From: Deltaproteobacteria bacterium
GTDB lineage: Bacteria > Myxococcota_C > UBA6777
Length of the DNA stretch: 36,515 nt
Assembly (NCBI GenBank): GCA_002731275.1
Contig: PCBK01000068.1
Coordinates: forward strand, 1 to 36,515
Direction of reading: 5' to 3'
A model generated the notes under the pieces. The model saw only the letters and a list, made by a program, of their open reading frames with translations, had not been told where the DNA came from and made no database searches. Numbering within the stretch: position 1 is the stretch's first letter; every line of letters starts with the position of its first letter. Below, in pieces: positions 4,901-34,835 of the stretch. The translations under genes were made by a program, and so were the position numbers.

Positions 4901-5866
4901 CTTTCCAGTCACAGAGCACGTTCGTGTACCACTCTTACAGGGCAGTGTGTCTTTGGTGCTCTCTGGTGTACCTGTGTAACAGGCTTGTTCTTCACCAGGA
5001 AGACACTCACAACCTTCGTCGATCTGCCCATCACAGTTGTCATCCTTCTTGTTACAGGTCTCTTCTTTTTCGGGCAAGATTTGTCCGAGGCATTCCCCCC
5101 ACTTTCCCGACGCGTTACAGCTCTGTTTTCCCTTCTTACAGCTACCTTTCCCGACAGTCTCAATGGCCGCGCTGTAGCACTCTTGCACATCTCCAGGTGT
5201 ACAGTCACATTGTTTTGCGTCATCGATCACACCGTTGCAATCGTCATCTAGACCATTACATGTCTCTTGTTGTGGTGTGATTTCTCCAAGACACGCGCCC
5301 CAGTCTCCATCCTCAGTGCATGTCTTTTTCCCGCCCAAACAAGGCCCTTTTCCCATCGTCCCAGTGGGTCCAGTATAACAATCATCACTGCGTCCAGGTG
5401 CACACTGAATGACATCTTTGCAATCGATATCAAGCGTGTCGGTCTTTCCATCGCAATCGTTATCGAGACCATCACGACAGGCACTCTTCGTGTTTTCAGG
5501 CGTTCGACTGGAGCGACAATCTCCCCAAAGTAACTCATTGAGTCCATCTTCCTGACAAATCCTCGTCCCTCTCGTGCATCCATCAGGTGAATTTGTGAGC
5601 ACACATGTCTCCACACTCCCCTTCGAAGTACACTCTTCTCGCTTTTTGGACTGACAGACCTTGTCCACACAGCGACCAGTGTACCACTGGTTGCTACATT
5701 CACAATTGTAGTCACAGGGACTGTCTTGTGGATTGACTGTCAGTAGAGAGTACTTTTGATCCGCAGTGCAAGACGGTGGCGCAGAACAAGCCTGCATCCA
5801 GCCCCCTCCAATCAGACACAAAGACAACAGCACCAAGAGCGAACATCTTCGAAGATAGTACATCAT
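1910..5866 (-). CDS. Large Cys-rich lipoprotein: eight MopE-type metal-binding repeats plus NHL-type propeller
   Basis: 1318 residues. The signal peptide ends at MQAC (Cys27, lipobox-like). Residues 28-120 are Cys-rich. Eight copies of a C-[ND]-x-x-D-[ND]-[DN]-C-[DN]-G-x-x-D motif lie near residues 130, 203, 271, 337, 407, 476, 548 and 623, spaced 66-75 residues. This is the MopE-like putative metal-binding motif (PF11617); the DxDxDG spacing suggests calcium or copper. Between the repeats are small modules containing GxC..GxQxC...GxWGxC. Residues from about 645 to the end are NHL-type propeller blades, each with a N..IRxID..G.V..IAG signature (for example NHIIRQIDSKGDVSVIAG and NHRIRVIPWRP at the end). 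The start is the first of two adjacent ATGs with AAGG just upstream. It is likely a surface protein binding metal and a ligand; no enzymatic residues were identified. Confidence 0.9.
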   Translation of the reverse strand: MMYYLRRCSLLVLLSLCLIGGGWMQACSAPPSCTADQKYSLLTVNPQDSPCDYNCECSNQWYTGRCVDKVCQSKKREECTSKGSVETCVLTNSPDGCTRGTRICQEDGLNELLWGDCRSSRTPENTKSACRDGLDNDCDGKTDTLDIDCKDVIQCAPGRSDDCYTGPTGTMGKGPCLGGKKTCTEDGDWGACLGEITPQQETCNGLDDDCNGVIDDAKQCDCTPGDVQECYSAAIETVGKGSCKKGKQSCNASGKWGECLGQILPEKEETCNKKDDNCDGQIDEGCECLPGEEQACYTGTPESTKDTLPCKSGTRTCSVTGKWGRCFLEVTPEPEVCDGKDNDCNGKIDDSKECECWPPGGVTQECYFGAPATKNKGLCAVGIQRCEKGGKWSKTCEGQILPAKEICNGKDDNCDGAIDDGGVCKCWPPGITRNCTDGIPAASVGKGICKAGTQLCGSQGTWGLCQGVIAPQPEDCNLKDDDCDGVVDNTKGGGTNSLLRACHQSKGCSLDASGKYVCKGACQAGTQACINGNWGECSGQVTPVVEVCNGKDDDCNGMIDDKPTDAPLCRKQSGSCLGARVPVEVTRGGQTISGCVNGQWRSCDVQDYKDYFAQYDVQEGTVCNDVDNDCDGQIDRDVPMCQATVAGSENLSGFRDAAGTKALFHKPSVLAFNKGRVFVADLGNYLIRQIDPCGNVISIAGAGQRGDRDGKGPSAELGWITAMAFADDAPQRLFISDNTANKIKVLDMDTYEVTTIAGSGARGRLDGQGHLAEFVNVRGLDVSADGKTLYVSDANRIRKLTYLKAGVCGGSTQYTGYCVETISFVYKPADANKPSSFDGIAFSGSYLYIVDAGQGSLLRLTLSTKTVTVLKAGLEGPTHIVFSQKKGNLYIGGRGATQSTFAKLYKWNVPSSSLSVLPVTGRLGNVSGLTVAVDSKGEELGLFYSQDGRQSIKEYTFVARSNPPQRCVIPYIGGEPGQVDGPRTKARLNAPKGMTYHKINEQIGRVYVADSRNHIIRQIDSKGDVSVIAGQKTPGFVDGPASGATFYQPADVAYHPTQNAIYVVDQGNHSIRKIDLKTELVTTFAGNGKAGMVDAIGKSAQFNSPSSIAIDKAGDIFVADTGNGRVRKIDSSGKVTTYINSAQASGVGGIAFGPQGALFFVNGKSYDLRKAVPYTSSCKGTKHLGLCITMVVGSNTNIVKDDLAVSDPKDAQGFLTTLGSSVGHIDIDRDGTLYIGMPFKSFIWQIRYIQNGSCGTKSPYTGACAARLGAKKNGGGDKDGETLFALFNNPYAVLVLPSGDLWVADTGNHRIRVIPWRP

Positions 5867-6162
5867 TTTACCTTACCCTGGGGTTCTTCCAATGAAAGAA
5901 AACGACTTCGTCGTTTTTCTTTTTGCGGCCATGTAAAAAGTGCGGAAGATTTGGAGAGTGGATTCAAATCATTCGCTAAAACTTGCCAAAAAACGCAAAA
6001 AGGACATCTCTTTCGAATGCATAGCTCGGAACACTCTAGACAAAGCTATCAGCACACTTTTGTGCTACCAAAGATGGCCTCTCCCCTCACGTACACCATC
6101 CCTTGACAACCGCGCCCCCCAAAGACCAAAGTGCTTATAAGACCGCTTAATCCAAACAGAAT
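5867..6162. other. Intergenic region between divergent genes
   Basis: 296 bases separate the divergent MopE/NHL gene and the small lipoprotein gene. The only structure I see is a short hairpin at 5899-5917. A TTGACA at 6103-6108 has no correctly spaced -10 element. I found no convincing gene here. Confidence 0.5.
5899..5917. other. Small hairpin in the leader of the MopE/NHL gene
   Basis: AAAACGAC-TTC-GTCGTTTT is a perfect 8-bp stem with a 3-base loop, followed on both strands by T-rich sequence. On the minus strand it lies about 33 bases before the ATG of the MopE/NHL gene, so it would fall in the mRNA leader. It may be a weak terminator-like or attenuating hairpin. The function is inference. 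Confidence 0.35.
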
Positions 6163-6843
6163 ATGGAGAGGCCATTGCGAATCACAACCCTGTGCTTGCT
6201 CATGATGTCGTGTACTTTGTTCGGTTGCCAGAAGGACCAGGCACCAACCTCAAAAAACCCCCCTTCACACACAGCATCTTTGAAACATTCGTACATCAGA
6301 CAGATAAAAAGCAGTCCATCATTTTTGGCGAAATACACATTAAGCAAGGGTTGGAGGACACAGTCCTTCGCCTTGACAGCAGCAAAAGATGGGCGGTTTC
6401 AAGTTGAGTTACGAGAATTTGGCCAACAACTCTCTCTTCAACGGTTTGCGCTCAGGGCAGGACAAACGATCACCCTCGAATACGCGATCAACAAACAACC
6501 CAAATCTCGAACACTCCAAGTTGTCAGATGGACCCCCACGGCGAAATCAAAACATGTCTATACCTTGGCTGACACAGCCCCAAAACAACCAAGGACAGCC
6601 TACAACGAATCAGGTCCAAAAAGCTCCATTCTTTCAAAGACAAAGAAGACCTTCTACTACTGGGCATGGATGTACAAAGGTGGTGGCATTCCATACAACG
6701 ACTTCAAAAGGGGATGTTTTACGATCATCACAGGGGGTGCCAAAAAGATCTGTCGGACACAAGCGTGGCAAGGAGGCAAAGCTGTTAGATGGGAGCAATT
6801 GCGTGATGTGAACTTCGTCTCCCTCTCTATCCAACAGGAATAA
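6163..6843 (+). CDS. Small putative lipoprotein of unknown function
   Basis: 226 residues. The N-terminus is a clear lipoprotein signal: a short basic n-region, a hydrophobic core, and TLFGC with Cys22 at the lipidation position. The mature part is basic and beta-rich, with two Cys residues in its C-terminal third (RGCFTII and KKICRTQ) that could form a disulfide. I do not recognise a family. Start ATG 6163 has no visible Shine-Dalgarno. It stands alone: the gene to its left is divergent and the gene to its right appears to have its own promoter at 6924-6952. Confidence 0.75.
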   Translation: MERPLRITTLCLLMMSCTLFGCQKDQAPTSKNPPSHTASLKHSYIRQIKSSPSFLAKYTLSKGWRTQSFALTAAKDGRFQVELREFGQQLSLQRFALRAGQTITLEYAINKQPKSRTLQVVRWTPTAKSKHVYTLADTAPKQPRTAYNESGPKSSILSKTKKTFYYWAWMYKGGGIPYNDFKRGCFTIITGGAKKICRTQAWQGGKAVRWEQLRDVNFVSLSIQQE

Positions 6844-6923
6844 CCAAAGTACATCGCCGACTTTCCCCATAGAATGTCCTTTTTGAGCCATCAGGTACAA
6901 AAACACAGGACTTTTGGTCGAGA

Positions 6924-6952
6924 TTGCAATTTCAGCAAAGTCTCGTTACACT
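6924..6952 (+). promoter_or_regulatory. Candidate sigma70-type promoter of the HEAT-repeat gene
   Basis: TTGCAA (6924-6929), a 17-base spacer, and TACACT (6947-6952), each matching 4 of 6 consensus bases. The predicted transcript start near 6958 lies downstream of the longest-frame start (TTG 6914), which supports the ATG at 7025. Confidence 0.45.
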
Positions 6953-7024
6953 CACCAACGTCCTCAAACAATGGGTTCAAGATCATTTGAATCGTCATGG
7001 TTCGAAAAGGAGCATATATTTCTG

Positions 7025-8602
7025 ATGAACAGGAAGCATCGAACAAAGCATCTCACTTTTGTCGTGTGGTTAGGTCAGAAGATAGAAAAAAGCATACGTA
7101 GGGGGGCAGGCTCAAGAGCGAGCAAGCAGGCGCGAGGAGGCGGCATAGCAACGCTCTGCCAACGACAAACAACGAACTTGCTGGCCTTGACCCAAGCCCT
7201 GACGTATTCCTTTTTTCATCTTTTGGCCTTATGTTGTGGACTCACTTTTGGCCTCGTGTGTCATGTATACACACCCACCAATGCCCACGCACAATTGTCG
7301 AAGACACGTTTTCCAGCCCTGTTACAACAACTGCAAGCAAAAGACGCCACACAGCGAGAGTTCGCCGTTCGTACAATCGGCTATTTTCGCAAACGTGCGC
7401 TCGCACTCCTGCCGAAAGTGTTCCCATTGCTCAACGACAAGGCTCCCCAAGTCAGGACCTCCGCCCTTCGCTCGATTGGGCAGATCTGTCATACACTCTC
7501 AACACAGCAACACACAGCGCTCACCGCAAAGACCCAAGATTCAGATTGGAAAGTCCGCGCCACAGCGATCTGGGCGCTCGGACGTTGCACCCAACAAGAG
7601 ACAAAACTCTTGCCGCTGTTCCTCAAAGGGTTACAAGACCCACAGCACTGGGTTCGACAAAGAGCACTCGAAGCCATCGGAAACTTCGGTGTAAAAGCAA
7701 AGCAAACGCTCCCCTCAGTGAGCCAAAGTCTTCATGACAAACATTGGCTCGTCAGGATGCAGGCGGTCAAAACGCTAGCTCGTATCAGTCATTACGCAAA
7801 GGACATCGCACCGTCGCTCTTTTCGATGCTCTCAGACACAGAGCCTGCGGTCCGTTTGCTCGTCTCCAAACAGCTAGAAAAGATGCCCAAAGAGATCATC
7901 CCAGAGCTTGGAAAGAGTCTGGACAACAACGATCCTCACGTCCGTAAAATGGCAATTTATGTGCTTGGCAAAAAAGGAAGTCAACACAAAGAAGCCATTG
8001 TGTACCTTCGGAAAGCCTTGAAAGACAAAGACCTGTCTCTTCGTGAGATCGCAGCGACGGAGTTAGGTAACCTTCGAGAAAAAGCCCGCACAGCGTTGCC
8101 AGAGCTTGAACACAACCTCTACAACAAACGGCACTCCCTCAAACAAATCGCGGCCTGGGCTCTGGGACGTATTGGGACAGTCTCGCTCCCAGTGTTGATG
8201 AAAGCCGTCCGCCTTCATGGCATCAAACCCAAAGATTGGCGTATCAAAGTCGCCGCCATCGAAGCCCTGATCTACCTCGGTCCCAAAGCTGCTCCCGCAG
8301 CACCAGCCCTCGTCGAGGCGATGCTCAATCACCACTGGCGCGTGCGCAAAGAAGCTGCTTGGGCGATCCTTCGCATTGGTCCAGGTGTTGTCAAATACCT
8401 CGACAAACCCTATGTCAAAATGCTCACCAAAGCCCACCACGACAGGATCTGGCCGATCAAACTCGCGACAGTCAAAGCACTCGGATGGATGGGACCTGTC
8501 GCCAAGTCATCACTGTGGGTCATGCGCAGGATGCGCTTTCACCCAAACGCCAAAGTCAGACAGGCCGCCAACAGCGCGCTCATCTCTATCAAGCGTCGCT
8601 AA
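7025..8602 (+). CDS. Exported or membrane-anchored HEAT-repeat protein
   Basis: 525 residues from ATG 7025. I prefer this start over the longer frame (TTG 6914) because AAAGGAG lies 12 bases upstream and a candidate promoter lies between the two. The N-terminal 50 residues are basic. A long hydrophobic stretch follows (LLALTQALTYSFFHLLALCC and onward) ending in AHAQ, which could be an unusually long signal peptide or a membrane anchor. The rest, about residues 95-525, is a run of roughly ten HEAT/PBS-lyase-like repeats with a recurring VR..A..ALG.I pattern (for example WKVRATAIWALGRC, VRKMAIYVLGKKG, WRVRKEAAWAILRIG). Such solenoids are scaffolds for protein binding, and no catalytic motif is present. 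A UPF0462-like gene follows 30 bases later and is probably co-transcribed. Confidence 0.82.
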   Translation: MNRKHRTKHLTFVVWLGQKIEKSIRRGAGSRASKQARGGGIATLCQRQTTNLLALTQALTYSFFHLLALCCGLTFGLVCHVYTPTNAHAQLSKTRFPALLQQLQAKDATQREFAVRTIGYFRKRALALLPKVFPLLNDKAPQVRTSALRSIGQICHTLSTQQHTALTAKTQDSDWKVRATAIWALGRCTQQETKLLPLFLKGLQDPQHWVRQRALEAIGNFGVKAKQTLPSVSQSLHDKHWLVRMQAVKTLARISHYAKDIAPSLFSMLSDTEPAVRLLVSKQLEKMPKEIIPELGKSLDNNDPHVRKMAIYVLGKKGSQHKEAIVYLRKALKDKDLSLREIAATELGNLREKARTALPELEHNLYNKRHSLKQIAAWALGRIGTVSLPVLMKAVRLHGIKPKDWRIKVAAIEALIYLGPKAAPAAPALVEAMLNHHWRVRKEAAWAILRIGPGVVKYLDKPYVKMLTKAHHDRIWPIKLATVKALGWMGPVAKSSLWVMRRMRFHPNAKVRQAANSALISIKRR

Positions 8603-8632
8603 CCCCATCTCATCACAACGAAAGACTTCCAC

Positions 8633-9157
8633 ATGCACACATCCATCCAGTCGACATGGGACGGCAACACGCTCCCCGCAGAACAACATGTCTTCATCCA
8701 ACTCACGCACAAAGACGACGCACTACACATTGTCTTCGATGCCCCATTTTACGACGATCCAGCGCCCGAAGCCCCAGTCGGTCCCACACCTGCGCTCTGG
8801 AATCACGAGGTCGTCGAGTTCTTCTTCTCTGCTCCCCTCAACGATCCAGAGACCGTCACCTATACAGAGCTAGAATTTTCCCCACATGGACACTATCTCG
8901 TGCTCCAACTCAAAGGAATCAGACAGATCAAAACACAGCTGCTCCCGATCTCCTTTCAGGCGCAGAGACACGGACAACGCTGGCGCGGTGAAGTCGAGCT
9001 CCCACTCTCCTTACTCCCAGACAACGTGCAGCTTTGGAACGCCTATGCCATTCACGGCCTCGGTGCCGAAAGACAATATCTCGCGATGTGTCCTGTTCCA
9101 GGAGACAAACCGGACTTCCACCGACTCCAACACTTTGCTCCATATCCAAAGCGATAA
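8633..9157 (+). CDS. UPF0462/C4orf33-like protein with CBM9-like fold
   Basis: 174 residues with no signal peptide, so probably cytoplasmic. The pattern LWNHEVVEFFF followed by YTELEFSPHGHYLVLQL is the hallmark of the UPF0462 (C4orf33) family, which resembles family 9 carbohydrate-binding modules. Family function is unsettled; a sugar or glycan ligand would be inference. Length is near the usual 170-200 residues. ATG 8633 has only a weak upstream purine stretch. The 30-base gap to the HEAT gene suggests one transcript. Confidence 0.75.
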   Translation: MHTSIQSTWDGNTLPAEQHVFIQLTHKDDALHIVFDAPFYDDPAPEAPVGPTPALWNHEVVEFFFSAPLNDPETVTYTELEFSPHGHYLVLQLKGIRQIKTQLLPISFQAQRHGQRWRGEVELPLSLLPDNVQLWNAYAIHGLGAERQYLAMCPVPGDKPDFHRLQHFAPYPKR

Positions 9158-9325
9158 CCCCTAACAACACACCCCCCAAGTAGACCTCCCTCCAAAAGTC
9201 TCCTCCCAAGCCAGTACACCCAGCTCCATTTTTTGGCATCGCGTGTCACTTTCTACGTTCTCCAGACAGCCGAAAGACCAGGACAAACCTACGGGGAGTA
9301 CGAAAAAAGTGGATAAAAGTGAGGA

Positions 9326-9355
9326 TTGACAGCGTCTTTATAGGGATGGTATACA
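9326..9355 (+). promoter_or_regulatory. Candidate sigma70-type promoter of the trypsin-like protease gene
   Basis: A perfect -35 TTGACA (9326-9331), an 18-base spacer and TATACA (9350-9355). A start near 9362 would leave a leader of about 73 bases before ATG 9435. The element sits in an otherwise empty 277-base gap (9158-9434). Confidence 0.6.
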
Positions 9356-9434
9356 TCTACGAAAATTGGAGCAAAAGAGCCTTCCGAACAGGTCGAGGAA
9401 GACCTCAGCCTCGCAACATGGGAGTAGTATATTT

Positions 9435-11921
9435 ATGAAGCAACGAATTTGGATGCAGTGCCTTTTGTATTGTTTGGCCCTCGCCCTTTTATTTTCCCCG
9501 GCGTGTGGGCGTGAGACAGTTGAACCTGCCCCACAAACAAAAGACAACATCTCCACCAAACAACAGGCCATTATCAACGGAAAGCAGGACTCTGCGTACC
9601 CTGCAGCAGGAAGTTTAACGGCCAACCAACAATCCTTTTGTACAGGGACACTGATCGCATCGCGTGTCGTGTTGACAGCAGCCCACTGTATTGATGCATT
9701 TGCCCAATACCAGGGCCAATCACTTCAATTTCGTATTGACATCCCCTACGAAAATTTGAAGTACCGCACGATCTACGCAGACATCGACGTAGCCAACACA
9801 GAAAAACACCCACAATATTCGGGGCAACAAGGTCAGGCACCATTAAATGATGTCGCGGTCGTGATCCTCAAGGCGCCAGTCTTTGCAGTCGCGCCAATGC
9901 CGTGGCAAAAGACCAAGCCACCACAAACCTGGATCGGTACCAAAGCGATGTTCATGGGGTATGGTCGTCTGTCTGCGACAGCAACAGGCTCAGCGCCAAG
10001 AAAATACTCGACACTCATCCCCATCACAGGGATCGACCCCAAGGACGCTGCCGGACAAACCAAGACCAACCAGATCAGCTACGAAGACCCGAGCACATCG
10101 GTTTGTCAAGGAGACTCTGGAGGTCCAGCCTTCTACAACGTCAACGGTGTGATGACTCTGATCGCGGTCACTTCCCACGGAACCTCCTTCTCTTGTAACG
10201 GGACAAATTACTCATTCCGTACAGACCCCTACGCAGCCTGGATTGAGAGCTTCATCACTAAATTCGCCGTTTGTTCATCCAAGGCAGATTGCGGTCCTTG
10301 TAGCGACTGCAAAAACAATGCGTGTGTACCCATCGCAGTCACGGCCAACGCCAACCAATGCAAAGTTTGCTCGACAGATGCAGATTGTACAGGTGGCGGA
10401 ACATGTATGTTTATCGGTACGGGACTGCGTTGTATGTACGCTTGTAACAGCAACGGCTGTTGTCCCTCTGGCAACGTCTGTGGTACGGAGCCCAACGGTG
10501 GAAACCATTGTCTCCCCGAACCAATGGTCTGTCCAGATGTCAAATGTAGCAAAGACAGTGACTGTAGCCCCAAAGAGATCTGTGGCACTGGCGGGACATG
10601 TGAGATCAAACTTCCGGCCCTCGATCCCAAGACTTGTCATCCTTGCACCAAGAGCGCAGACTGCGCAACAGGCGGATACTGTAATACACCTGACGGTCGT
10701 GGCGGGACATGTCTGCAACCCTGCGACAATGATCTATGTCCCAAAGGATTCAAGTGTGAAGTGGTCTCAGGCATCAAACAATGTCTTCCCACAAATGGTC
10801 AATGTCTCGTCGCTTGTAAAGCCAACACGGACTGCCCCACAGGATTCGAATGTAAAAGCGACAGCTGTGTCCGCACAGGTGGTGGTGAGGTTGGTGAGCA
10901 GTGCTCGACAAACAACCCCTGTAAAACAGGACTCAACTGTATCGCCAACGGCAACGAGACGCGATGTTACCAGACTTGTGGAACGCCAGAAGGTTCAGCA
11001 GGTTCTCCTTGTCGAGCAGGAAACCAGTGTGATCCAGGGCTGACCTGTTACCCCAACCCTCTCGGCGGAAAAGCGATCTGTGTCGAATCCTGCCAGGGCG
11101 GCGCACCTTGTAAACTTGGTGGGACATGTTTGAGTTTTGCGGGGATCTGTATCTGTCAAAACGACGCTGAGTGTGGCGGAAATGGTCGCACATGTAACAA
11201 AATTATCTCCTTTGGTGGTGCCTGTACAGACAAACAAGCAGCCGGTTGTCCAGCAGGTGAAGTCTGCTCATCTGGCAGCATCGGACAGGACAAGATCTGC
11301 CTGAAAAAGAACGAGGCCACACGTGGCATTGGACAATCTTGTAGTGCAGCAAACACCTGTAAAGACGGACTCATCTGTGCACCACTCATCGATGTTTGTG
11401 TCGAAAGTTGCAGCGCAACCAAGAAGTGTACCCAAGGTGGCCAATGCCAAAGTCTGCCCATTCCAGGCGCCAGCACACAGGTTTGCCTCTGCGATGCTTC
11501 GGCACCATGCCCAGTAGGCACAAAGTGTAACATCATCCAGCAGATCAACGCCGGGTACTGTCAGGCCGATGGAAGTGGTGCATGCCAAGATGACAGTCAA
11601 TGTCCGAGTGGCTTCGTCTGTCAAAACCAACAATGTGTCCAAGCCGGCACAGAACCCAAGCCTGAACCCAAACCAGAGCCTGCTCCAGAACCAGCTCCCA
11701 AAGAGCCCACAGCCGAACCTGCAGCAGAAGCCGCCACACCAGATGCGGGCACAACGGAAAAAATAGTCAACATCGACTCTCCCGGCACCACACAAGACAC
11801 AGGTACTCCAGCAGCACCTAAGGCTTGTGGCTGTCAAACGACATCCCCCACGCCTGACTTCTCTCACTTGCTGCTCGGTCTCTGGCTCCTGCTCCTGCCC
11901 CTCTTCCGTAAACGCTCCTAA
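9435..11921 (+). CDS. Secreted trypsin-like serine protease with Cys-rich stalk and MYXO-CTERM-like tail
   Basis: 828 residues from ATG 9435. This start is chosen over TTG 9366 because a signal peptide begins exactly here and GGAG lies about 10 bases upstream. Residues 1-23 are the signal; Cys24 (SPAC) is a weak lipobox. Peptidase family S1 spans about 46-285: IINGK at the mature N-terminus, His84 in LTAAHC, Asp139 in NDVAVV, Ser228 in CQGDSGGP, so the triad is complete. Residues 285-770 are repeats of a C-x4-DC-x4-6-G-x2-C-x4-C module. A Pro/Glu/Ala-rich linker follows. The last 32 residues (ACGCQ, hydrophobic span, FRKRS) match the layout of MYXO-CTERM surface-sorting tails. The protease is probably displayed on the cell surface; its target is unknown. 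Confidence 0.92.
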   Translation: MKQRIWMQCLLYCLALALLFSPACGRETVEPAPQTKDNISTKQQAIINGKQDSAYPAAGSLTANQQSFCTGTLIASRVVLTAAHCIDAFAQYQGQSLQFRIDIPYENLKYRTIYADIDVANTEKHPQYSGQQGQAPLNDVAVVILKAPVFAVAPMPWQKTKPPQTWIGTKAMFMGYGRLSATATGSAPRKYSTLIPITGIDPKDAAGQTKTNQISYEDPSTSVCQGDSGGPAFYNVNGVMTLIAVTSHGTSFSCNGTNYSFRTDPYAAWIESFITKFAVCSSKADCGPCSDCKNNACVPIAVTANANQCKVCSTDADCTGGGTCMFIGTGLRCMYACNSNGCCPSGNVCGTEPNGGNHCLPEPMVCPDVKCSKDSDCSPKEICGTGGTCEIKLPALDPKTCHPCTKSADCATGGYCNTPDGRGGTCLQPCDNDLCPKGFKCEVVSGIKQCLPTNGQCLVACKANTDCPTGFECKSDSCVRTGGGEVGEQCSTNNPCKTGLNCIANGNETRCYQTCGTPEGSAGSPCRAGNQCDPGLTCYPNPLGGKAICVESCQGGAPCKLGGTCLSFAGICICQNDAECGGNGRTCNKIISFGGACTDKQAAGCPAGEVCSSGSIGQDKICLKKNEATRGIGQSCSAANTCKDGLICAPLIDVCVESCSATKKCTQGGQCQSLPIPGASTQVCLCDASAPCPVGTKCNIIQQINAGYCQADGSGACQDDSQCPSGFVCQNQQCVQAGTEPKPEPKPEPAPEPAPKEPTAEPAAEAATPDAGTTEKIVNIDSPGTTQDTGTPAAPKACGCQTTSPTPDFSHLLLGLWLLLLPLFRKRS

Positions 11922-12022: not shown

Positions 12023-12063
12023 GGTCTCTCCTTCTTTGTATCTTGAGACAGGAGCAGATGTTG

Positions 12064-13275
12064 ATGGAAGACCTCATCTCACTCACCAGAGCCGCGCTCT
12101 CATCACCTACGATAGAATCATTTGAGACGCTCGCCTTCCAGCTCCTCACCGTTAGCATTGAAGCCTCTGTCCAGGCCGTACAGTACGGTCGCGAACATCT
12201 CAAAACAACTCCGCCCCCCAAACCCCACATAAAAGAAACAATTGGTTCTTATACACTCTTCAGACAACTGCCCAACAAACACGACCCCACCTCACACAAC
12301 AGAGCCGAACACCCATACGAACGACAACTTTTTCTGCTTCACAGTCCCTACCGCAAAAACGATATACTGATGTGCTATCACCCGGAGATTCCGGAGTGGA
12401 TGGATACGTTTCCGCTGTATGAGTTACAATTCCCATCAAATCACCCCAACCTCCAAAATTTGATCAAAGGTGGAGAGGGAGAGGGGTACACATACTCACT
12501 GCTCGACAACATCGATGGTCCATGCATTCGCGACATCGCAGCACACATACACAACATGACTCCCACACAACAAGAGATCCTGGCCCTCGTCCTTGGTATA
12601 CAAGGTGCAAAAGGTCTACAAGCCCTTCATGAGCTTCACATGAATGGACAACATCTCAACGCCGTATACAGATCAGTGAATCCAAACAACGCGCTCCTCT
12701 CCAGCGACGGTCGTTTGTGTTGGAAGAATGTCTACACACAACACTTTGGATATCCACAAAGTCACAGCAGGGGTTTCCAGTTTATGTCTCCTAAGCAAAT
12801 CAAGGGAGAATACATCACGCAAAAGGCGGATATTTACAGCCTTGGTATGCTGTTGTATGAGTTACTGGTTGTACATGACACTTTTGCGGGCTCCGATATC
12901 GACACATTGCGTGCAATCATCGACAGAAAACTTCCCTCCATCTTCACTTGTAGACCTGGGATTGGTGGACTTGGAGATATCATCACCACCTGTTTGGCAT
13001 TCGATCCAGACAATCGCTTTGAGAGCACGAGCGCGCTGACGACCGCACTGCAAAGACAATTCGAACACGTCACACAACACATGCCCCTCGAAGATTTGTG
13101 GGGCGCAGAAGATCGAAGTCCCCGCTCTGTCCTCAAGGCATGGATGGAGAAGACACTCTACCTGGAGTCCTTTTTGACAACACTCGCGATGCGCATTCCC
13201 GTACAATCCGCGACAAAAGAAGTCATCCCCTACTATTGGGATTCACTCACATCACTGTACCAACAACTACAATAA
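12064..13275 (+). CDS. Degenerate Ser/Thr protein kinase-like protein (probable pseudokinase)
   Basis: 403 residues from ATG 12064, which has AGGAG 9 bases upstream; ATG 12058 and TTG 12043 are alternatives. The C-lobe of a eukaryotic-type kinase is recognisable. YRSVNPNN at 202-209 aligns with the catalytic loop HRDxKPxN, FMSPKQ at 241-246 with the activation-segment YMSPEQ, and DIYSLGMLLYELL at 256-268 with the helix F signature. The catalytic Asp is Ser204, the loop Lys is Asn206, no DFG follows the ALLSSDG strand, and no Gly-rich loop or VAxK lysine is visible in the N-lobe. It is therefore probably catalytically dead, acting as a scaffold or sensor. There is no signal peptide. The next gene starts 21 bases downstream, suggesting an operon. 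Confidence 0.75.
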   Translation: MEDLISLTRAALSSPTIESFETLAFQLLTVSIEASVQAVQYGREHLKTTPPPKPHIKETIGSYTLFRQLPNKHDPTSHNRAEHPYERQLFLLHSPYRKNDILMCYHPEIPEWMDTFPLYELQFPSNHPNLQNLIKGGEGEGYTYSLLDNIDGPCIRDIAAHIHNMTPTQQEILALVLGIQGAKGLQALHELHMNGQHLNAVYRSVNPNNALLSSDGRLCWKNVYTQHFGYPQSHSRGFQFMSPKQIKGEYITQKADIYSLGMLLYELLVVHDTFAGSDIDTLRAIIDRKLPSIFTCRPGIGGLGDIITTCLAFDPDNRFESTSALTTALQRQFEHVTQHMPLEDLWGAEDRSPRSVLKAWMEKTLYLESFLTTLAMRIPVQSATKEVIPYYWDSLTSLYQQLQ

Positions 13276-28355: not shown

Positions 28356-28677
28356 CGACATTCTCCTTACTGTATACACAGATACTGATACTTGCGAGCT
28401 TCCACTATCATATAGATCGCACAAGCAAAATGCCACCAAACATTTCTCCGAGATTGCGCTCTGGCGCTTCCAATACAGTCTCTACCGGCACCAAACAACC
28501 CCCACACTCATCGAATGAACCTGCTCTGTGTCTGGTCAATGGATGCAACACGCCCTATCATGGAAGAGACACACTCTGCACCCAAAAACGAACGGACATT
28601 GGAACGTCGGCGCTCGCTCGTTGACCAAAGAGACACAACGCCGTCAACACACGAGCCCAAAGCACAGGAGCACTACA
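28356..28677. other. Divergent intergenic region
   Basis: About 320 bases between the barrel gene and the preferred M50 start. Open frames cross it but have no supported start. I see no correctly spaced promoter pair in either direction and no repeat. Confidence 0.4.
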
Positions 28678-30414
28678 GTGTCTTCAACGGAAGAGCCCAC
28701 AGTGACACCATCCTCCAAAGGACAACATCGTCCCTCAACAGCACAACAGGTCGAGGCTTTTCTGCAAAAGGAGACAGAGCTTGAGCAGCTCTCTCCACTC
28801 TCCCGTCACCTTCAAGCTGCTGCCCCAACAGAGACCGGACCACCTCTCTTTGACGGCAATGCGCTCACATTCCGAGGCAGTTACAGGAGGTTCTTCGTCT
28901 TCTTGGTCTTCTTTTGTTTTGCGTTGGCGATTGGACTCTTTTTTACACTTCGTGCGCTCGCGTGGATCTATGTTGAGCAGTGGACTTTGGGACTGACCTC
29001 AGCCTTCGCGATCTTTGCGACGCTCATGTACCTGTTTGGGAGCTATCGCCGCAGAAGTATCACCATCGACACATATGGCATCTCCTACACAGACGAGTTG
29101 CGTAGCCTGCTCATCCGCTGGGAAGACATTAACAGCATCCATCTTCACGCTGTCGCGGCCTTCTTTAACCCCTATCCTCTCTGCTATGTGCGTCTTGTGA
29201 CCGAGCAAGAGGAAGAGTTTGGATTCTCCAGTTTTGGGCGCTTTTTGTTCGGCATCCAACGAGGCATTTCGTTTGGAAATCCTCCCTACCCGATCATCGA
29301 CATTCGCGACGCAGATCTTCTCCTTGCCTTACTCATCCAACACGCGCCAGCAAAAGCAGAGCTGCCAGATCTAGAGAGGATATGGTATCGCGCCCAACAG
29401 AGCGTCGAAGAACAAGACGAAGAGACCACAACACCAACCACCGAAAAAGAGTCGTCCTCAGCATCATCTGCACGTTCAGCGTGGTTGGGGTTGTGGACGC
29501 TGGGCGCCAAGATCGGCTTGAAGTTCTTGCCCCACCTGCCTAAGACACTGCAATTTGCGCTCAAAACGATCAAACCGACTTACGTTGGTCTCTCAGTGGG
29601 CTTGTACGCAGTCTTCTTCACCTGGCAATTTGCGCTCTTGCTGTGTTTTATCCTGCTCGTTCACGAATGGGGGCATGTGTGGGCGATGCACAAGGAAGGG
29701 ATGGAGATCAGAGGTGTCTACTTTATCCCATTCTTTGGCGCTGCGACTGTCACAGATGATGTCTGGAAGAGTTGGGGAGCACAAGCAAGGGTCAACATCG
29801 CAGGTCCTCTGTGGGGCCTCTATGGTGTCATCCTGAGCATGGCTTTGTATGCCGTGACAGCGTCCAACTTTTGGCTTGGTGCTGCGCTCTGGGGTGCCCT
29901 CGTCAACTTCCTCAACTTGCTCCCAGTGCATCCTCTTGACGGTGGTCGCATCCTCAACGCGATGGCCTACTCCCTGCAATCCTACATTGGATACGTTATC
30001 ATCCTGGCGATCCTGATAGGGACGGCTGGACTAGGCTTATTCATGGGACTCTTTTTGCTTTACATTCTCGCATGTATCGGCCTCGCAGAGTTCGTCAAGG
30101 AATACGGTCAGCGACAACGAGCGGATGCTTTCTCGTATGTCCATAACTTTGCGAATTGGACGCCCCATCAGCTCTTATCACTCAAGAGCATCACGAGCAT
30201 CAACTTTGGCGATCGAAATGCTCCCTATATGATCGAGCAAGAAGAAGTCGCCCTCAAACGATTGCATCTGATCCTCCACGCGCCCAAAATGACAGAAGAA
30301 GAGATCGCCAAGACAGGTTTCATGACACTCACGATCGCCGTTTTGTTGTTTGGTTTGTTGCTGTATCTCCAACACATTCCAGGTACACGCTGGGCCCTCC
30401 AACTCTTTCAATGA
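28678..30414 (+). CDS. M50-family intramembrane metalloprotease (site-2-protease type)
   Basis: 578 residues from GTG 28678. This start is preferred because AGGAG lies exactly 7 bases upstream; the longer frames from GTG 28528 or ATG 28543 add 45-50 low-complexity residues and have no ribosome-binding site. Two membrane segments (about 71-93 and 104-121) precede a cytoplasmic-looking region with a Glu/Ser/Thr-rich linker. The catalytic core has HEWGH at 329-333 as zinc ligands and base, and NLLPVHPLDGGR at 413-424 supplying the third ligand Asp421. Further helices and a C-terminal membrane segment follow. M50 proteases cut membrane-embedded substrates such as anti-sigma factors or serve in export; no substrate gene is evident nearby. 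Confidence 0.9.
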   Translation: MSSTEEPTVTPSSKGQHRPSTAQQVEAFLQKETELEQLSPLSRHLQAAAPTETGPPLFDGNALTFRGSYRRFFVFLVFFCFALAIGLFFTLRALAWIYVEQWTLGLTSAFAIFATLMYLFGSYRRRSITIDTYGISYTDELRSLLIRWEDINSIHLHAVAAFFNPYPLCYVRLVTEQEEEFGFSSFGRFLFGIQRGISFGNPPYPIIDIRDADLLLALLIQHAPAKAELPDLERIWYRAQQSVEEQDEETTTPTTEKESSSASSARSAWLGLWTLGAKIGLKFLPHLPKTLQFALKTIKPTYVGLSVGLYAVFFTWQFALLLCFILLVHEWGHVWAMHKEGMEIRGVYFIPFFGAATVTDDVWKSWGAQARVNIAGPLWGLYGVILSMALYAVTASNFWLGAALWGALVNFLNLLPVHPLDGGRILNAMAYSLQSYIGYVIILAILIGTAGLGLFMGLFLLYILACIGLAEFVKEYGQRQRADAFSYVHNFANWTPHQLLSLKSITSINFGDRNAPYMIEQEEVALKRLHLILHAPKMTEEEIAKTGFMTLTIAVLLFGLLLYLQHIPGTRWALQLFQ

Positions 30415-30660: not shown

Positions 30661-32634
30661 ATGAATACTTTACGCATTTCATTTCTTCTTTGCATCTCAG
30701 TCTTTGTAGGACTCATGATCTCTTGCGGCCAGTCTGCGAGCGGCCCGCTCCCGCAAGGCGGACTCTTCTGTCAACAAGATGCAGATTGCCCACAAGGACA
30801 ACGCTGCATCAATCTCCTCTGTATTGATCTCACGAAGATCAGCACTGAAAAAGGAAACACAGAAAAAGCTACGAAAGAAGCCACAAAAGAAGCAAACGAC
30901 GAGCCCTCTATCCCAACAGAGCAGAACAAAGAAACAACCCCCGAAGACGGTGGAGACACAGAGCCACCTCCAGCCGATACGCAATGTTCGGCAGTGGAGA
31001 TCTGCGGTGATGGACTCGACAACAATTGTAATGGCCAAACAGACGAAGGATGTGGGTGCAAGAATGATCAAGAGTGCCCCAAAGGTTTGTGCATCAACGC
31101 CAAGTGTGTGGATGGAGATTGTCGAACATTTGCGGATTGTGGAGACGGCAGAGTCTGTAAAGGCAACACCTGCTCAGCCTGCCAAAAGAACACAGAGTGC
31201 CCCCGAGAATACGTCTGCTTGACTGGACGCTGTAAAAAAGCAGAGTGCCAAAAGAACGGCGACTGCAAAAGTGGGCAACTTTGCGAAAACGGCATATGCA
31301 GTGATTGTTCAACGGACGCACAGTGCGCCAACGGCCAAAAGTGTATCGAGAAGCGATGTCAAACTCCCGAATGTACAGCCAACAGCCAATGCTCAGGCAA
31401 AGTCTGTCAGGCGTTCAAATGTGTCAATTGCAGCCAAAGCGCCAAATGTGACGCAGGATTACTCTGCCAAAACGGCACATGTATCAAACCACAATGTGTG
31501 GACAACAAAGGATGTGCAGACGGAAAAGTGTGCAAGGGTAACAAGTGTGTAAATTGCACGACAAAAGCCGATTGTGGCAGTGACAGCCTCTTCTGTGTTC
31601 AGGGAACCTGTCAAAAGGGCTGCACTGACATCAGCCAATGCGCCAAAGGGCAAGTCTGTATCAACAACCAATGTCGTGCCTGCAAAAACACACAGGAATG
31701 CCCTAGAGGAAATATCTGCGTCAATGGTGCGTGCACACAACAACAATGCGCGAGTTTGGCAGACTGTACCAACCAACAAGCTTGCATCCAAGGACAATGT
31801 AAAGCATGCACGAGAACCAGTGATTGCGGTCAAGCCGGCAATGTTTGCAACAATGGGAAATGCTACATTGGCCTTGAGGACGCTCAAGCTGGAAATACAA
31901 CCGCCAAACGCTGGACCAACAACACATACGCCGAAAATTGCCTTGGGTACAGAAAACCAAAAGCAGGATATGTCATCGCAAACAGAGACGGTCGATACTG
32001 GATTAAGCCGGCAGGTGCAAGTAATCCCTTTGCCGTGTATTGTGAGATGGATGACCTCGACGGTGGTGGATGGACACTCGTTCTGAAAGGAGACGGGACC
32101 AAGAGCACCTTCTCCTACGGCTCCAGCCGCTGGACCAACCAAAGCACATTCGGTAGCCCGACGTGGGATCTCAACGAAGGAAAATCCGCGAGTTACCACA
32201 CTGTTCCCTTTAGCGAACTTGCTGTTGTATTCCGTACAGGAAACAACAACTACAAGTCCCTCATCCTTCCCAAAAAAGCCAACTCACTTTACAACTTGAT
32301 GAGGGGTAATTACTCTGGCACAAATGTCGGCGTTGCCAAATGGAAGGCGCTCGTCAGCTCCGCATCATTGCAAAGTTACTGTCGTCGAGAAGGATTCAAC
32401 GTAGCTGGCGACTCAGGCTATGCGAGAGTGAGGATCGGTATCATCGGAAATGATAGAAACAATTGTGACTATGGAGAGTCCTTCATTGGATTTGGTGGAG
32501 CATCCCGGTGCATTTCAGGAACGGACTCAACAATCGGGAACACTGCGCCACACTCCGTCAACACCTGTGGTGCTGGAGCCGGAGATAACGGCGGCAAAAA
32601 TACAAAAGTCTTTGGCTATATCCTCGTCAGATAA
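30661..32634 (+). CDS. Lipoprotein with long Cys-repeat stalk and fibrinogen/intelectin-like C-terminal domain
   Basis: 657 residues; GGGAG 5 bases before ATG 30661. The signal peptide ends at LMISC (Cys22, lipobox-like). A first Cys module (CQQDADCPQGQRC) is followed by a Glu/Thr/Lys linker, then a single MopE-type motif (CGDGLDNNCNGQTDEGC, about 119-135). About thirteen tandem modules of 20-22 residues follow (x-DC-xxGxxC-xxxxC-xxC) to about residue 405. The last 240 residues are fibrinogen-C-terminal/intelectin-like: YWIKPAG, FAVYCEMDDLDGGGWTLV, and a Cys-rich end with GFGGASRC and VFGYILVR. In animals such domains bind glycans; here it may be a surface lectin or adhesin held away from the cell by the stalk. 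Confidence 0.88.
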   Translation: MNTLRISFLLCISVFVGLMISCGQSASGPLPQGGLFCQQDADCPQGQRCINLLCIDLTKISTEKGNTEKATKEATKEANDEPSIPTEQNKETTPEDGGDTEPPPADTQCSAVEICGDGLDNNCNGQTDEGCGCKNDQECPKGLCINAKCVDGDCRTFADCGDGRVCKGNTCSACQKNTECPREYVCLTGRCKKAECQKNGDCKSGQLCENGICSDCSTDAQCANGQKCIEKRCQTPECTANSQCSGKVCQAFKCVNCSQSAKCDAGLLCQNGTCIKPQCVDNKGCADGKVCKGNKCVNCTTKADCGSDSLFCVQGTCQKGCTDISQCAKGQVCINNQCRACKNTQECPRGNICVNGACTQQQCASLADCTNQQACIQGQCKACTRTSDCGQAGNVCNNGKCYIGLEDAQAGNTTAKRWTNNTYAENCLGYRKPKAGYVIANRDGRYWIKPAGASNPFAVYCEMDDLDGGGWTLVLKGDGTKSTFSYGSSRWTNQSTFGSPTWDLNEGKSASYHTVPFSELAVVFRTGNNNYKSLILPKKANSLYNLMRGNYSGTNVGVAKWKALVSSASLQSYCRREGFNVAGDSGYARVRIGIIGNDRNNCDYGESFIGFGGASRCISGTDSTIGNTAPHSVNTCGAGAGDNGGKNTKVFGYILVR

Positions 32635-32685: not shown

Positions 32686-33879
32686 ATGCGTGAAGTCGTG
32701 ATCGTTGCAGCAGCAAGAACAGGAATGGGTTCGTTTAATGGCTCATTGGCCTCTCTCAGCGCAACAGAATTGGGTGCAAAAGTCCTCAATGAAGTCATCA
32801 CCCGCGCTGGGCTGACCAAAGAGCAAGTTGATGAGGTCATCATGGGTAACGTCCTCCCCCACGGTCTTGGACAAAACCCTGCGCGCCAAGCCTGCCTCAA
32901 AGCAGAGCTGCCCTACGAATCAGGCGCGATCACTGTCAACAAAGTATGTGGTTCAGGATTGAAGTCCGTCATGCTCGCAGCACAGGCGATCGCTTGTGGT
33001 GATGCAGACGTCGTCCTCGCAGGTGGTATGGAGAACATGACTCGTGCCCCTTATATGATGGAGAAGGCTCGCTTTGGCCATCGTATGGGACATGGCCAAT
33101 TGACAGATGCGATGATCCACGACGGCTTGTGGGACATCAACAACGACTTCCACATGGGCTATACAGCAGAGCTCGTCTCCGAGAAGTACGGTATCTCACG
33201 TGAAGATATGGACGCGTTCGCGATGGAATCATACAACCGCGCAGAGCAGGCAAGAGACGCAGGGAAGTTCAAGGAAGAGATCATGACCTTGCACATCCCA
33301 CAACGAAAGAAAGATCCCATTGTCTTCGAAACAGACGAGGTCTTCCGTGCGACATCTCTTGAAAAACTCGCAAGTCTTCGCCCCGCCTTCAAGAGAGATG
33401 GTGGTGTGATCACTGCGGGTAACTCTTCGAAGATCTCGGATGGAGCGTCAGCTCTAGCCTTGACAAGTCGCGAATTTGCAGAGAAGCACAAACTCCCCAT
33501 CATCGCCAAAGTGGGTGCGCAGGCGTCCGCAGGGATCGAACCCAAAGATGTCCTCGTCGCGCCGATCAACGCGATCCCCAAAGTCCTCAAAAAAGCTGGA
33601 TTGACTGTCTCTGATATCGACTTGTACGAAGTCAACGAAGCATTCGCTGCGAGTACTGTCGCAGTCATGAGACACCTTGAGCTTCCCCATGAGAAGGTCA
33701 ACGTCAACGGTGGCGCGACAGCTCTTGGACACCCCATCGGCGCAAGTGGGGCGCGTGTCTTGACCACTCTTCTCTATGCCCTCAAACAACAAAACGCCCA
33801 TCGCGGTCTCGCGACGCTCTGTCTTGGCGGTGGTGAAGCTGTCGCCCTGATTGTTGAACGCGATCCCTCATTCACCTAA
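32686..33879 (+). CDS. Acetyl-CoA C-acetyltransferase (thiolase)
   Basis: 397 residues, usual for degradative and biosynthetic thiolases. It condenses two acetyl-CoA to acetoacetyl-CoA or runs in reverse; cytoplasmic, in fatty-acid, ketone or PHB metabolism. AAAGGAG 9 bases before ATG 32686. Catalytic residues are visible: Cys88 in NKVCGSGLKS, His349 in GGATALGHPIGASG, and Cys379 in CLGGGEA; also NEAFAAS. No companion PHB or beta-oxidation gene is present. It lies 51 bases after the fibrinogen-like lipoprotein gene, with no terminator seen, so read-through is possible although the functions appear unrelated. The specific symbol (atoB, thlA or phaA) cannot be decided. Confidence 0.95.
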   Translation: MREVVIVAAARTGMGSFNGSLASLSATELGAKVLNEVITRAGLTKEQVDEVIMGNVLPHGLGQNPARQACLKAELPYESGAITVNKVCGSGLKSVMLAAQAIACGDADVVLAGGMENMTRAPYMMEKARFGHRMGHGQLTDAMIHDGLWDINNDFHMGYTAELVSEKYGISREDMDAFAMESYNRAEQARDAGKFKEEIMTLHIPQRKKDPIVFETDEVFRATSLEKLASLRPAFKRDGGVITAGNSSKISDGASALALTSREFAEKHKLPIIAKVGAQASAGIEPKDVLVAPINAIPKVLKKAGLTVSDIDLYEVNEAFAASTVAVMRHLELPHEKVNVNGGATALGHPIGASGARVLTTLLYALKQQNAHRGLATLCLGGGEAVALIVERDPSFT

Positions 33880-33935: not shown

Positions 33936-34835
33936 TCAGCCGCAGACACGGTTTCGGCCGTTGCGTTTGGCGTGATAGAGGTAGGTATCGGCTTCTTTGA
34001 TCAGATGCGCAGCGTCTTGCGTCTCAGCCCCGGCCATTGCGACCCCCAGGCTAAGTGTCACGCGGATGTTCATCTTATCATAGAAGATCTGTTGGCTCTC
34101 GATGAGCTGTCTCAATTTTTCCGCGATTTGAAGCGCTTGCCAGCGATCGGTTTCGGGCAGCAAGAGAGCAAACTCTTCGCCGCCATAGCGCGCAAAGATA
34201 TCTTCTCGGCGTACATGACTTTGTGCGAGTCTTGCAGTCCGCTTGAGCACGTAATCACCAGCGAGGTGACCGTATGTGTCGTTGATCTGCTTAAAGTGGT
34301 CGAGATCGAGGAGAATCAGGCTGAGATGGCGTTTGTAACGAATGGCCCGGCTAAATTCTCGATCGAGGCAATCGAGGAAGAAGCGCTTGTTGTGGACCAT
34401 CGTGAGTCCATCCATCGTCGCGAGCTTGTAAAGCTCTTCGTGGTAAACGTTTTCGAGGTTGTCCTGGCTGAGGAACTTGAAAATCACCTCACCGATCTTG
34501 AGCAGATCTCCATCACACAGAGGCGCTTCTTTCACTTGCGTATCGTTGACGTATGTACCGTTTGTGCTACCGAGATCTTGTGCGACATACCCGTTCCCTT
34601 TCATCACGACTTGGGCGTGATGACGAGAGACAGAGTCACGATCGACGTAAATCGTCGCTTTTTCGGAGCGACCGATGATCATAGGTTGCCCACTTTCGAG
34701 GGGATAACGTTTTCCAAGATCGGGCCCATAAAGCATGACAAGGCAAGCATCTTTGGCTTTAGGGAGTTGATCTTGAAACTTTCCCACGACAGTGATTAGC
34801 GCCGTATTTTCCTCAAAATCCTTCATCTCACTCAT
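33936..34835 (-). CDS. FHA domain-GGDEF diguanylate cyclase
   Basis: 299 residues. An FHA domain occupies about 30-122 with the phosphothreonine-binding signatures IIGRSEKATIYV, SVSRHHA (68-74) and LGSTNGTYVN. A GGDEF domain occupies about 135-299, with LDLDHFKQINDTYGH and the active-site GGEEF at 218-222; the inhibitory I-site RxxD is RRED at 209-212, exactly five residues before. It should make cyclic di-GMP from two GTP and be product-inhibited, with the FHA domain tying activity or location to a Thr-phosphorylated partner. AGGA lies 5 bases before ATG 34835. Convergent with the thiolase gene. Confidence 0.93.
   Translation of the reverse strand: MSEMKDFEENTALITVVGKFQDQLPKAKDACLVMLYGPDLGKRYPLESGQPMIIGRSEKATIYVDRDSVSRHHAQVVMKGNGYVAQDLGSTNGTYVNDTQVKEAPLCDGDLLKIGEVIFKFLSQDNLENVYHEELYKLATMDGLTMVHNKRFFLDCLDREFSRAIRYKRHLSLILLDLDHFKQINDTYGHLAGDYVLKRTARLAQSHVRREDIFARYGGEEFALLLPETDRWQALQIAEKLRQLIESQQIFYDKMNIRVTLSLGVAMAGAETQDAAHLIKEADTYLYHAKRNGRNRVCG

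Follow-up and report, generated by a model that had tools for sequence, protein, structure and literature searches.

An intelectin-like fold predicted for the head of a cysteine-stalked, probable surface lipoprotein in a Deltaproteobacteria bacterium

Introduction

What use does a bacterium have for a domain that resembles the lectins of animal innate immunity, when it sits at the far end of a cysteine-rich chain that is probably tied to a membrane? The question is raised by a gene at 30661-32634 (+) of the window, that is, the whole 36,515-nt stretch of DNA analysed here (assembly GCA_002731275.1, contig PCBK01000068.1, positions 1 to 36,515; GTDB lineage Myxococcota_C, UBA6777). The gene starts with ATG and encodes 657 aa. 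A preliminary description had read the product as a lipoprotein with a fibrinogen/intelectin-like head on a stalk of Cys modules, and its account of this ORF proved correct in almost all details.

Results

A lipobox-like signal and fourteen cysteine modules

The lipobox consensus is [LVI][ASTVI][GAS]C behind a hydrophobic stretch. In the window protein, the hydrophobic signal peptide (residues 1-22; 30661..30726, +; sequence and regex scan) closes as GLMIS|C22, where Ser at -1 fits the lipobox and Met at -3 is non-canonical. The lipobox-like signal proposed earlier is thus present in this slightly deviant form (MIS|C22), and Cys22 would be the lipidated residue. The same regex scan found no lipobox in several paralogues, and detected one in 12 of the 24 head proteins with a closed 5' end among 28 from outside the window's phylum, a noisy tally in which at least 4 of the 12 proved false when the stretches were read. 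Between 30380 and 32720 we found no promoter sites, compared with 1.8 expected from shuffles, and 4 terminator-like sites compared with 2.9 expected.

The protein holds 68 cysteines. The pattern C-x5-C-x4-6-C-x4-C occurs exactly 14 times in residues 1-401; when these residues were shuffled 2000 times, it appeared 0.05 times on average and never more than twice. The count is in keeping with the roughly fourteen 20-residue modules of the preliminary description. The first module is membrane-proximal (residues 37-54; 30769..30822, +; pattern count), and the protein's best stretch for TIGR04201 lies at residues 37-50. It is followed by an acidic/Thr-rich linker, rich in Glu, Thr, Lys and Pro in the translation (residues 55-108; 30823..30984, +), and by one MopE-type motif (residues 111-129; 30991..31047, +). 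A single motif of this type had been predicted, and one was found; with 23.5 bits against a Pfam gathering cut-off of 27 for Cu-binding_MopE (PF11617), it is family-like and falls short of the family proper.

The other 13 four-Cys modules stand in tandem (residues 133-401; 31057..31863, +; pattern count, TIGR04201 and DUF7107), with a start-to-start spacing of 19-22 residues. NCBIfam TIGR04201 (Myxo_Cys_RPT) matched 10 stretches at 42.9 bits (curated cut-off, 25), and Pfam DUF7107 scored 48.7 bits (cut-off, 24.6). Because the Cys-rich tandem repeats of TraA, on which TIGR04201 was founded, are proposed to form a rigid stalk in PMC3325183, we infer that the modules of the window protein act likewise as a stiff stalk.

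The head is predicted to fold like an intelectin

The C-terminal head (residues 410-657; 31888..32631, +) contains the GGGWT core motif at residues 468-472 (32062..32076, +), in which GGGW is invariant among 42 aligned heads and T is kept in at least 90%. This alignment consists of the window head, 13 of the other heads among the 26 found in its phylum, and 28 heads from outside it with scores above 130 bits and alignments extending at least to profile position 245. Taken alone, residues 410-657 match NF040941 (GGGWT_bact, a fibrinogen-like domain with the signature YCDxxxxGGGW) at 43.8 bits (curated cut-off, 30) and Pfam Fibrinogen_C (PF00147) at 25.6 (gathering cut-off, 22), the latter over 43 residues only, and in a genome-wide NF040941 search the window head scored 46.2 bits. 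The C-terminal GGGWT head described earlier is therefore recovered by both models from the isolated domain, while Pfam and NCBIfam scans of the whole protein list neither. NF040941 has 46 positions and spans the core only; the C-terminal, intelectin-like half lies outside it.

AlphaFold2 modelled the head with a pLDDT of 90.6 and a pTM of 0.91, from an alignment in which the phylum's five genomes were represented by 26 heads. The six best Foldseek matches to this model in the PDB all belonged to the intelectin family, with modest TM-scores of 0.51-0.53 (rmsd about 7). In VIA-align, the best five entries were likewise all intelectins (Z 14.1-15.1, 205-217 residues aligned), including human intelectin-1 (Z 15.1, rmsd 3.6 Å, 217 aligned), XEEL (Z 14.8) and the lamprey lectin (Z 14.1), and the match spanned residues 9-248 of the 248-residue head. 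The entries that came after them, fibrinogens and FIBCD1, stood at Z 9.5; no fibrinogen, ficolin or angiopoietin exceeded this value, and all 50 entries listed were of the FReD/intelectin group. An unrelated fold, which the preliminary description had set as a refutation of its fibrinogen/intelectin reading, did not appear. A profile of the 42 heads ranked four intelectins at the top (5.7e-13, 9.2e-12, 8.9e-11 and 1.2e-10), with fibrinogen beta next (1.4e-9). The predicted structure thus supports an intelectin-like rather than a fibrinogen-like head.

Intelectins such as ITLN1, XEEL and the lamprey serum lectin share with the bacterial heads the GGGWT subdomain, the predicted fold over nearly the whole head and a C.....IG.GG pattern in the C-terminal half. 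Their sequence likeness to the head profile is significant over about 95 N-terminal columns only; the C-terminal halves aligned at an hhalign E of 0.21, with only 14 columns aligned in global mode, and we therefore do not equate single residues of the heads with those of the intelectin site. Since sequence similarity is confined to the N-terminal half and the calcium signatures are not conserved, the head is not classed as an intelectin despite its predicted fold.

A candidate ligand or metal site

Intelectins are trimers that bind exocyclic 1,2-diols in a Ca2+-dependent manner, and we take the ligand-site residues of ITLN1 to be E244, N260, E262, H263, E274, W288 and Y297. This assignment follows in part the lamprey lectin, for which PMC9682848 gives the calcium ligands Glu262, Asp279, Glu281 and Glu293 in the matching half, along with the intelectin loop consensus HENxxxGxCTxGD. 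When the 42 heads were compared with three intelectins, this calcium loop was absent after GGGWTLV, with no conserved Cys or HEN at that place. The preliminary description had suggested a search for intelectin calcium-site residues; these are not recognisably conserved, and a different acid/amide cluster occupies the same half.

The candidate ligand or metal site comprises the loop NDRNNCDYGES (residues 597-607; 32449..32481, +) and possibly Gly626-Asn627 (32536..32541, +), both picked out by column counts in the 42 heads. Residue 597 is Asn or Asp in 41 of 42 heads, an acid is found at 598/599 in 39, Asp or Glu at 606 in 39 and Asn or Asp at 627 in 35; Cys602, Ser or Thr at 607, and Gly610, Gly612 and Gly626 are kept in all 42. 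The four-residue set (597, 598/599, 606, 627) is complete in 32 of the 42; for the heads of the window's phylum the figure is only 13 of 26, so that the site cannot be usable by every head. The window head has all four residues. Its loop NDRNNC departs from the bacterial consensus (NxENDC in most heads), with Arg599 and Asn601 in place of the commonest Glu and Asp. Binding of Ca2+ by this loop is plausible from the residues present. The calcium region of gamma-fibrinogen reads DNDND...GWW..CH, and the heads have no counterpart of GWW..CH; by eye only, the bacterial NxENDC resembles the DNDND loop.

A conserved locus with heads under apparent purifying selection

Upstream of the gene lies an M50-family membrane peptidase (28528..30411, +; PF02163, 52.5 bits), and 51 bases after its stop begins an acetyl-CoA acetyltransferase (thiolase; 32686..33876, +; PF00108/PF02803, with TIGR01930 above cut-off). 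The order of peptidase, stalked head and thiolase, all on one strand, is kept in L041 and L042, two genomes from a different genus in this family, in both of which a three-head stalked protein has been added beside the single-head gene. In L041 these genes lie at 2337-4955 (M50), 5232-7103 (single head), 7124-10903 (three heads) and from 11037 (thiolase); L042 has the same order reversed, with the three-head protein at 4733-8509. Identity between the window and these loci is 69-70% for the thiolase, 46-50% for the M50 peptidase and about 41% for the head. Our tree places the syntenic single head as sister to the window head, with support (93/70) that is not strong. In two genomes of a third genus, the thiolase matches (C494, C723 and C264; C43 and C26) fall on contigs that have no match to the window head.

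Orthologous heads of the two congeners L041 and L042 are 89-96% identical. Pairwise Nei-Gojobori dN/dS between these two genomes was 0.10 for the single head and 0.18, 0.13 and 0.08 for the three heads, compared with 0.19-0.23 for the stalks, 0.26 for the M50 peptidase and 0.04 for the thiolase. The heads thus appear to be under purifying selection rather than racing.

Elsewhere in the window, 1910-5866 (-) encodes another large surface-type protein of 1318 aa, with MopE motifs (94.1 bits), NHL repeats and a Teneurin NHL match (54.5 bits). Further on, 9366-11918 (+) encodes an 851-aa protease of the trypsin family, followed by a protein-kinase-like gene (12043-13272, +; 35.4 bits against 31.7). 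The gene at 33936-34835 (-), which faces the lectin-thiolase pair, joins an FHA domain to a diguanylate cyclase (GGDEF).

A multi-copy family in two phyla

The window's phylum, as grouped, comprises five species (five genomes) and is distinct from Myxococcota, the phylum of Nannocystis. All five genomes contain matches to the window head. With NF040941 they gave 8, 13, 13, 14 and 23 matches (71 in total, 67 of them above the cut-off), compared with none in any of 14 control genomes; at E up to 1, the model matched all 26 heads of the phylum. Among 145 genomes of sampled relatives, 7 matched, 5 of them being the phylum's own, which leaves 2 of the other 140. The domain is widespread in Myxococcota, where 130 of 235 genomes matched at E 0.001 (129 above the cut-off, with at most 28 candidates scored per genome); two genomes in which all candidates were scored had 40 and 35 matches. 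The rarity of the bacterial fusion implied by the preliminary description is not borne out by these counts, nor by the existence of an NCBIfam model.

A scan of public contigs confirmed 153 relatives among 236 pattern matches. The 78 loci kept come mostly from Myxococcota MAGs and include one myxobacterial isolate, Nannocystis pusilla; single loci carry the titles Hydrogenedens, Flavobacterium, Spirochaetes, Achromobacter, Parcubacteria and a Woesearchaeon. Plasmid records gave no match at E 0.01. Of the 28 full-length heads outside the phylum, 25 are preceded by a region with at least three loose Cys modules. Proteins of the phylum bear one to three heads on stalks of highly variable length.

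We built a tree from 54 heads (26 of the phylum and 28 from outside) and 3 phage sequences. All 26 heads from the window's phylum fall into a single clade (97/99), separate from the Myxococcota heads, which indicates a lineage-specific expansion. Within its own class, the window head shares about 26-44% identity with other heads, and heads within a genome are about 40% identical to one another. A second head class shares only 114 N-terminal columns with the 42-head profile (99.3%, E 4e-20), and its AlphaFold2 model has a pLDDT of 66.7, with residues 146-234 under 50. This comparison points to a common pattern in which a conserved N-terminal core is joined to varied or exchanged C-terminal halves.

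Several of the public records are unusual in themselves. A contig titled Woesearchaeota archaeon encodes a GGGWT head protein in which a regex scan finds three MopE-type motifs (L111, 2303-4606). The head at L088 (1325-4636), from a MAG titled Klebsiella pneumoniae with 20 GGGWT matches in its genome, groups with heads of Proteobacteria- and Myxococcales-titled MAGs; the MAG is probably wrongly named. Very long frames also hold GGGWT domains: for example, frames of 4212-4974 aa in the L062 genome (G146, contigs C141, C338 and C8), and an open frame of 12,255 aa around a match at G003:C26:471404-471508.

Relatives in cyanophage tail-fibre clusters

T4-like cyanophages carry full-length homologues of the head. 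For one protein of cyanophage S-RIM12, 188 columns aligned to the profile of the heads (99.3%, E 3.3e-20). The alignment runs through the motif MRFGITMNNENECNSNDSSIGFG, and the protein scores 31.3 with NF040941, above the cut-off. Its relatives occur in 95 of 50,697 phage records, all cyanophages by name. In the four records that were opened (three genera), the gene lies within a tail-fibre cluster in every case, as the third to fifth gene after the last annotated tail-fibre gene of the run. A structural search of BFVD gave only three matches at E <0.001, one of them named 'phage tail fiber-like protein'; TM-scores to proteins of S-CAM8 and P-HM2 were 0.70-0.72, above any PDB entry listed. In the tree, the phage heads group with Myxococcota heads, outside the window's clade. 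The association with tail fibres is the best hint that the head may bind surfaces. An earlier metavirome study places phage genes for a 'fibrinogen-like coiled coil' under host recognition (PMC3909814).

Discussion

We conclude that the gene product is probably, if by no means certainly, a surface lipoprotein that works as a lectin or adhesin of fixed specificity, with an intelectin-fold head on a Cys stalk. The signal peptide would carry the chain over the inner membrane, and lipid on Cys22 would anchor it, most likely in the outer membrane. The fourteen disulfide-rich modules, if they function as proposed for TraA, would then form a stiff stalk that keeps the C-terminal head off the envelope, where the head would most likely bind a specific carbohydrate on another cell or in a matrix. 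The conserved acidic and amide residues of the loop may form the binding site, which may hold Ca2+. The presence of several proteins with differing heads in the genome argues for a fixed-specificity repertoire rather than one hypervariable receptor, in which each paralogue would contribute a single specificity, much like phage tail adhesins.

The evidence can be read in other ways. Fibrinogen_C is the sole Pfam match above its cut-off, the intelectin ligand residues are not recognisable in the heads, and solved FReDs bind proteins as well as sugars, with angiopoietins, tenascin and FGL1 among the matches; the head might therefore be a fibrinogen-type protein-binding module in the style of these proteins, which docks on a partner, envelope or matrix protein. 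We consider this rather unlikely, given that structure and profile alike rank intelectins over all fibrinogen-type domains and that the heads are without the GWW..CH of the gamma-fibrinogen calcium region. Heads within a single genome (about 40% identity, with differing C-terminal halves) are more diverse than one shared ligand would need, and the phage relatives sit in tail-fibre clusters; both observations speak against an envelope or matrix protein whose heads tie together exopolysaccharide of the same cell or hold a coat and do not recognise other cells. Cys-rich repeats, numerous paralogues and heads in tandem would fit such a role, and the strong constraint on the heads agrees with it, but it seems to us improbable.

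Least probable, and by some distance from likely, is a kin-recognition receptor like TraA, with a variable head that binds its own kind. TraA of Myxococcus xanthus does share with the window protein the TIGR04201 repeats, proposed as its stalk, together with a lectin-like head (PMC3325183). The order of parts is reversed, however: in TraA a PA14 head lies at the N-terminus and a sorting tag at the C-terminus, whereas the window protein has an N-terminal anchor and a C-terminal head of a different fold. The TraA model NF033759 gave only 23.5 bits against a curated cut-off of 750, its best stretch (169-250) falling in the repeats. A polymorphic self-marker should also vary more than heads that are 89-96% identical with dN/dS of 0.08-0.18 in two genomes, and many paralogues occur together in one genome.

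The favoured reading, a stalked lectin of fixed specificity, differs in display from both of its relatives. Intelectins are secreted oligomers, whereas the bacterial heads are C-terminal on a probably lipid-anchored stalk. The cyanophage tail-cluster proteins (S-RIM12, S-RIM2, S-CAM8 and Syn33) are homologous to the head across the domain, and the 330-aa cyanophage protein, annotated as hypothetical, shows neither a Cys stalk nor a lipid anchor. Among tested systems, the closest analogue of a repertoire is the set of MAT fibres that the predator Bdellovibrio bacteriovorus bears on its surface; their tips, which have known adhesive folds, can be exchanged and were assayed for glycan binding. 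According to PMC10769870, these fibres are trimeric, with tips of TNF-like, C-type lectin and new folds, and neither 'fibrinogen' nor 'intelectin' occurs in its main text.

Each part of the window protein is already named in public libraries, and PMC9682848 proposes that bacterial motifs may be a prototype of the intelectin domain, with a phage or bacterial source. Our literature search, which covered few subscription journals, yielded no paper on stalked heads of this intelectin-like type in bacteria. New relative to the literature found are the stalked lipoprotein architecture, the whole-domain match to intelectins, the expansion, the conserved locus and the cyanophage link.

Taken together, these observations allow a broader reading that we put forward tentatively, as possible but somewhat doubtful as a whole: Myxococcota-like bacteria would hold a repertoire of stalked intelectin-fold lectins with fixed glycan specificities, and cyanophage tail-fibre clusters would use the same domain; vertebrate intelectins would be a late offshoot of this ancient adhesin of bacteria and phages, and bacteria would use their heads to read microbial surface sugars of the same kind in choosing prey, partners or surfaces. 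If this is true, a lectin domain of animal innate immunity is a common tool with which environmental bacteria and phages read cell surfaces, and one lineage keeps an intelectin-like domain as a stalked, multi-copy display. Should the reading of sugars be wrong, the heads would still represent an abundant, constrained and little-studied surface family. The finding bears both on the origin of intelectins and on cell recognition by large environmental Myxococcota-like bacteria.
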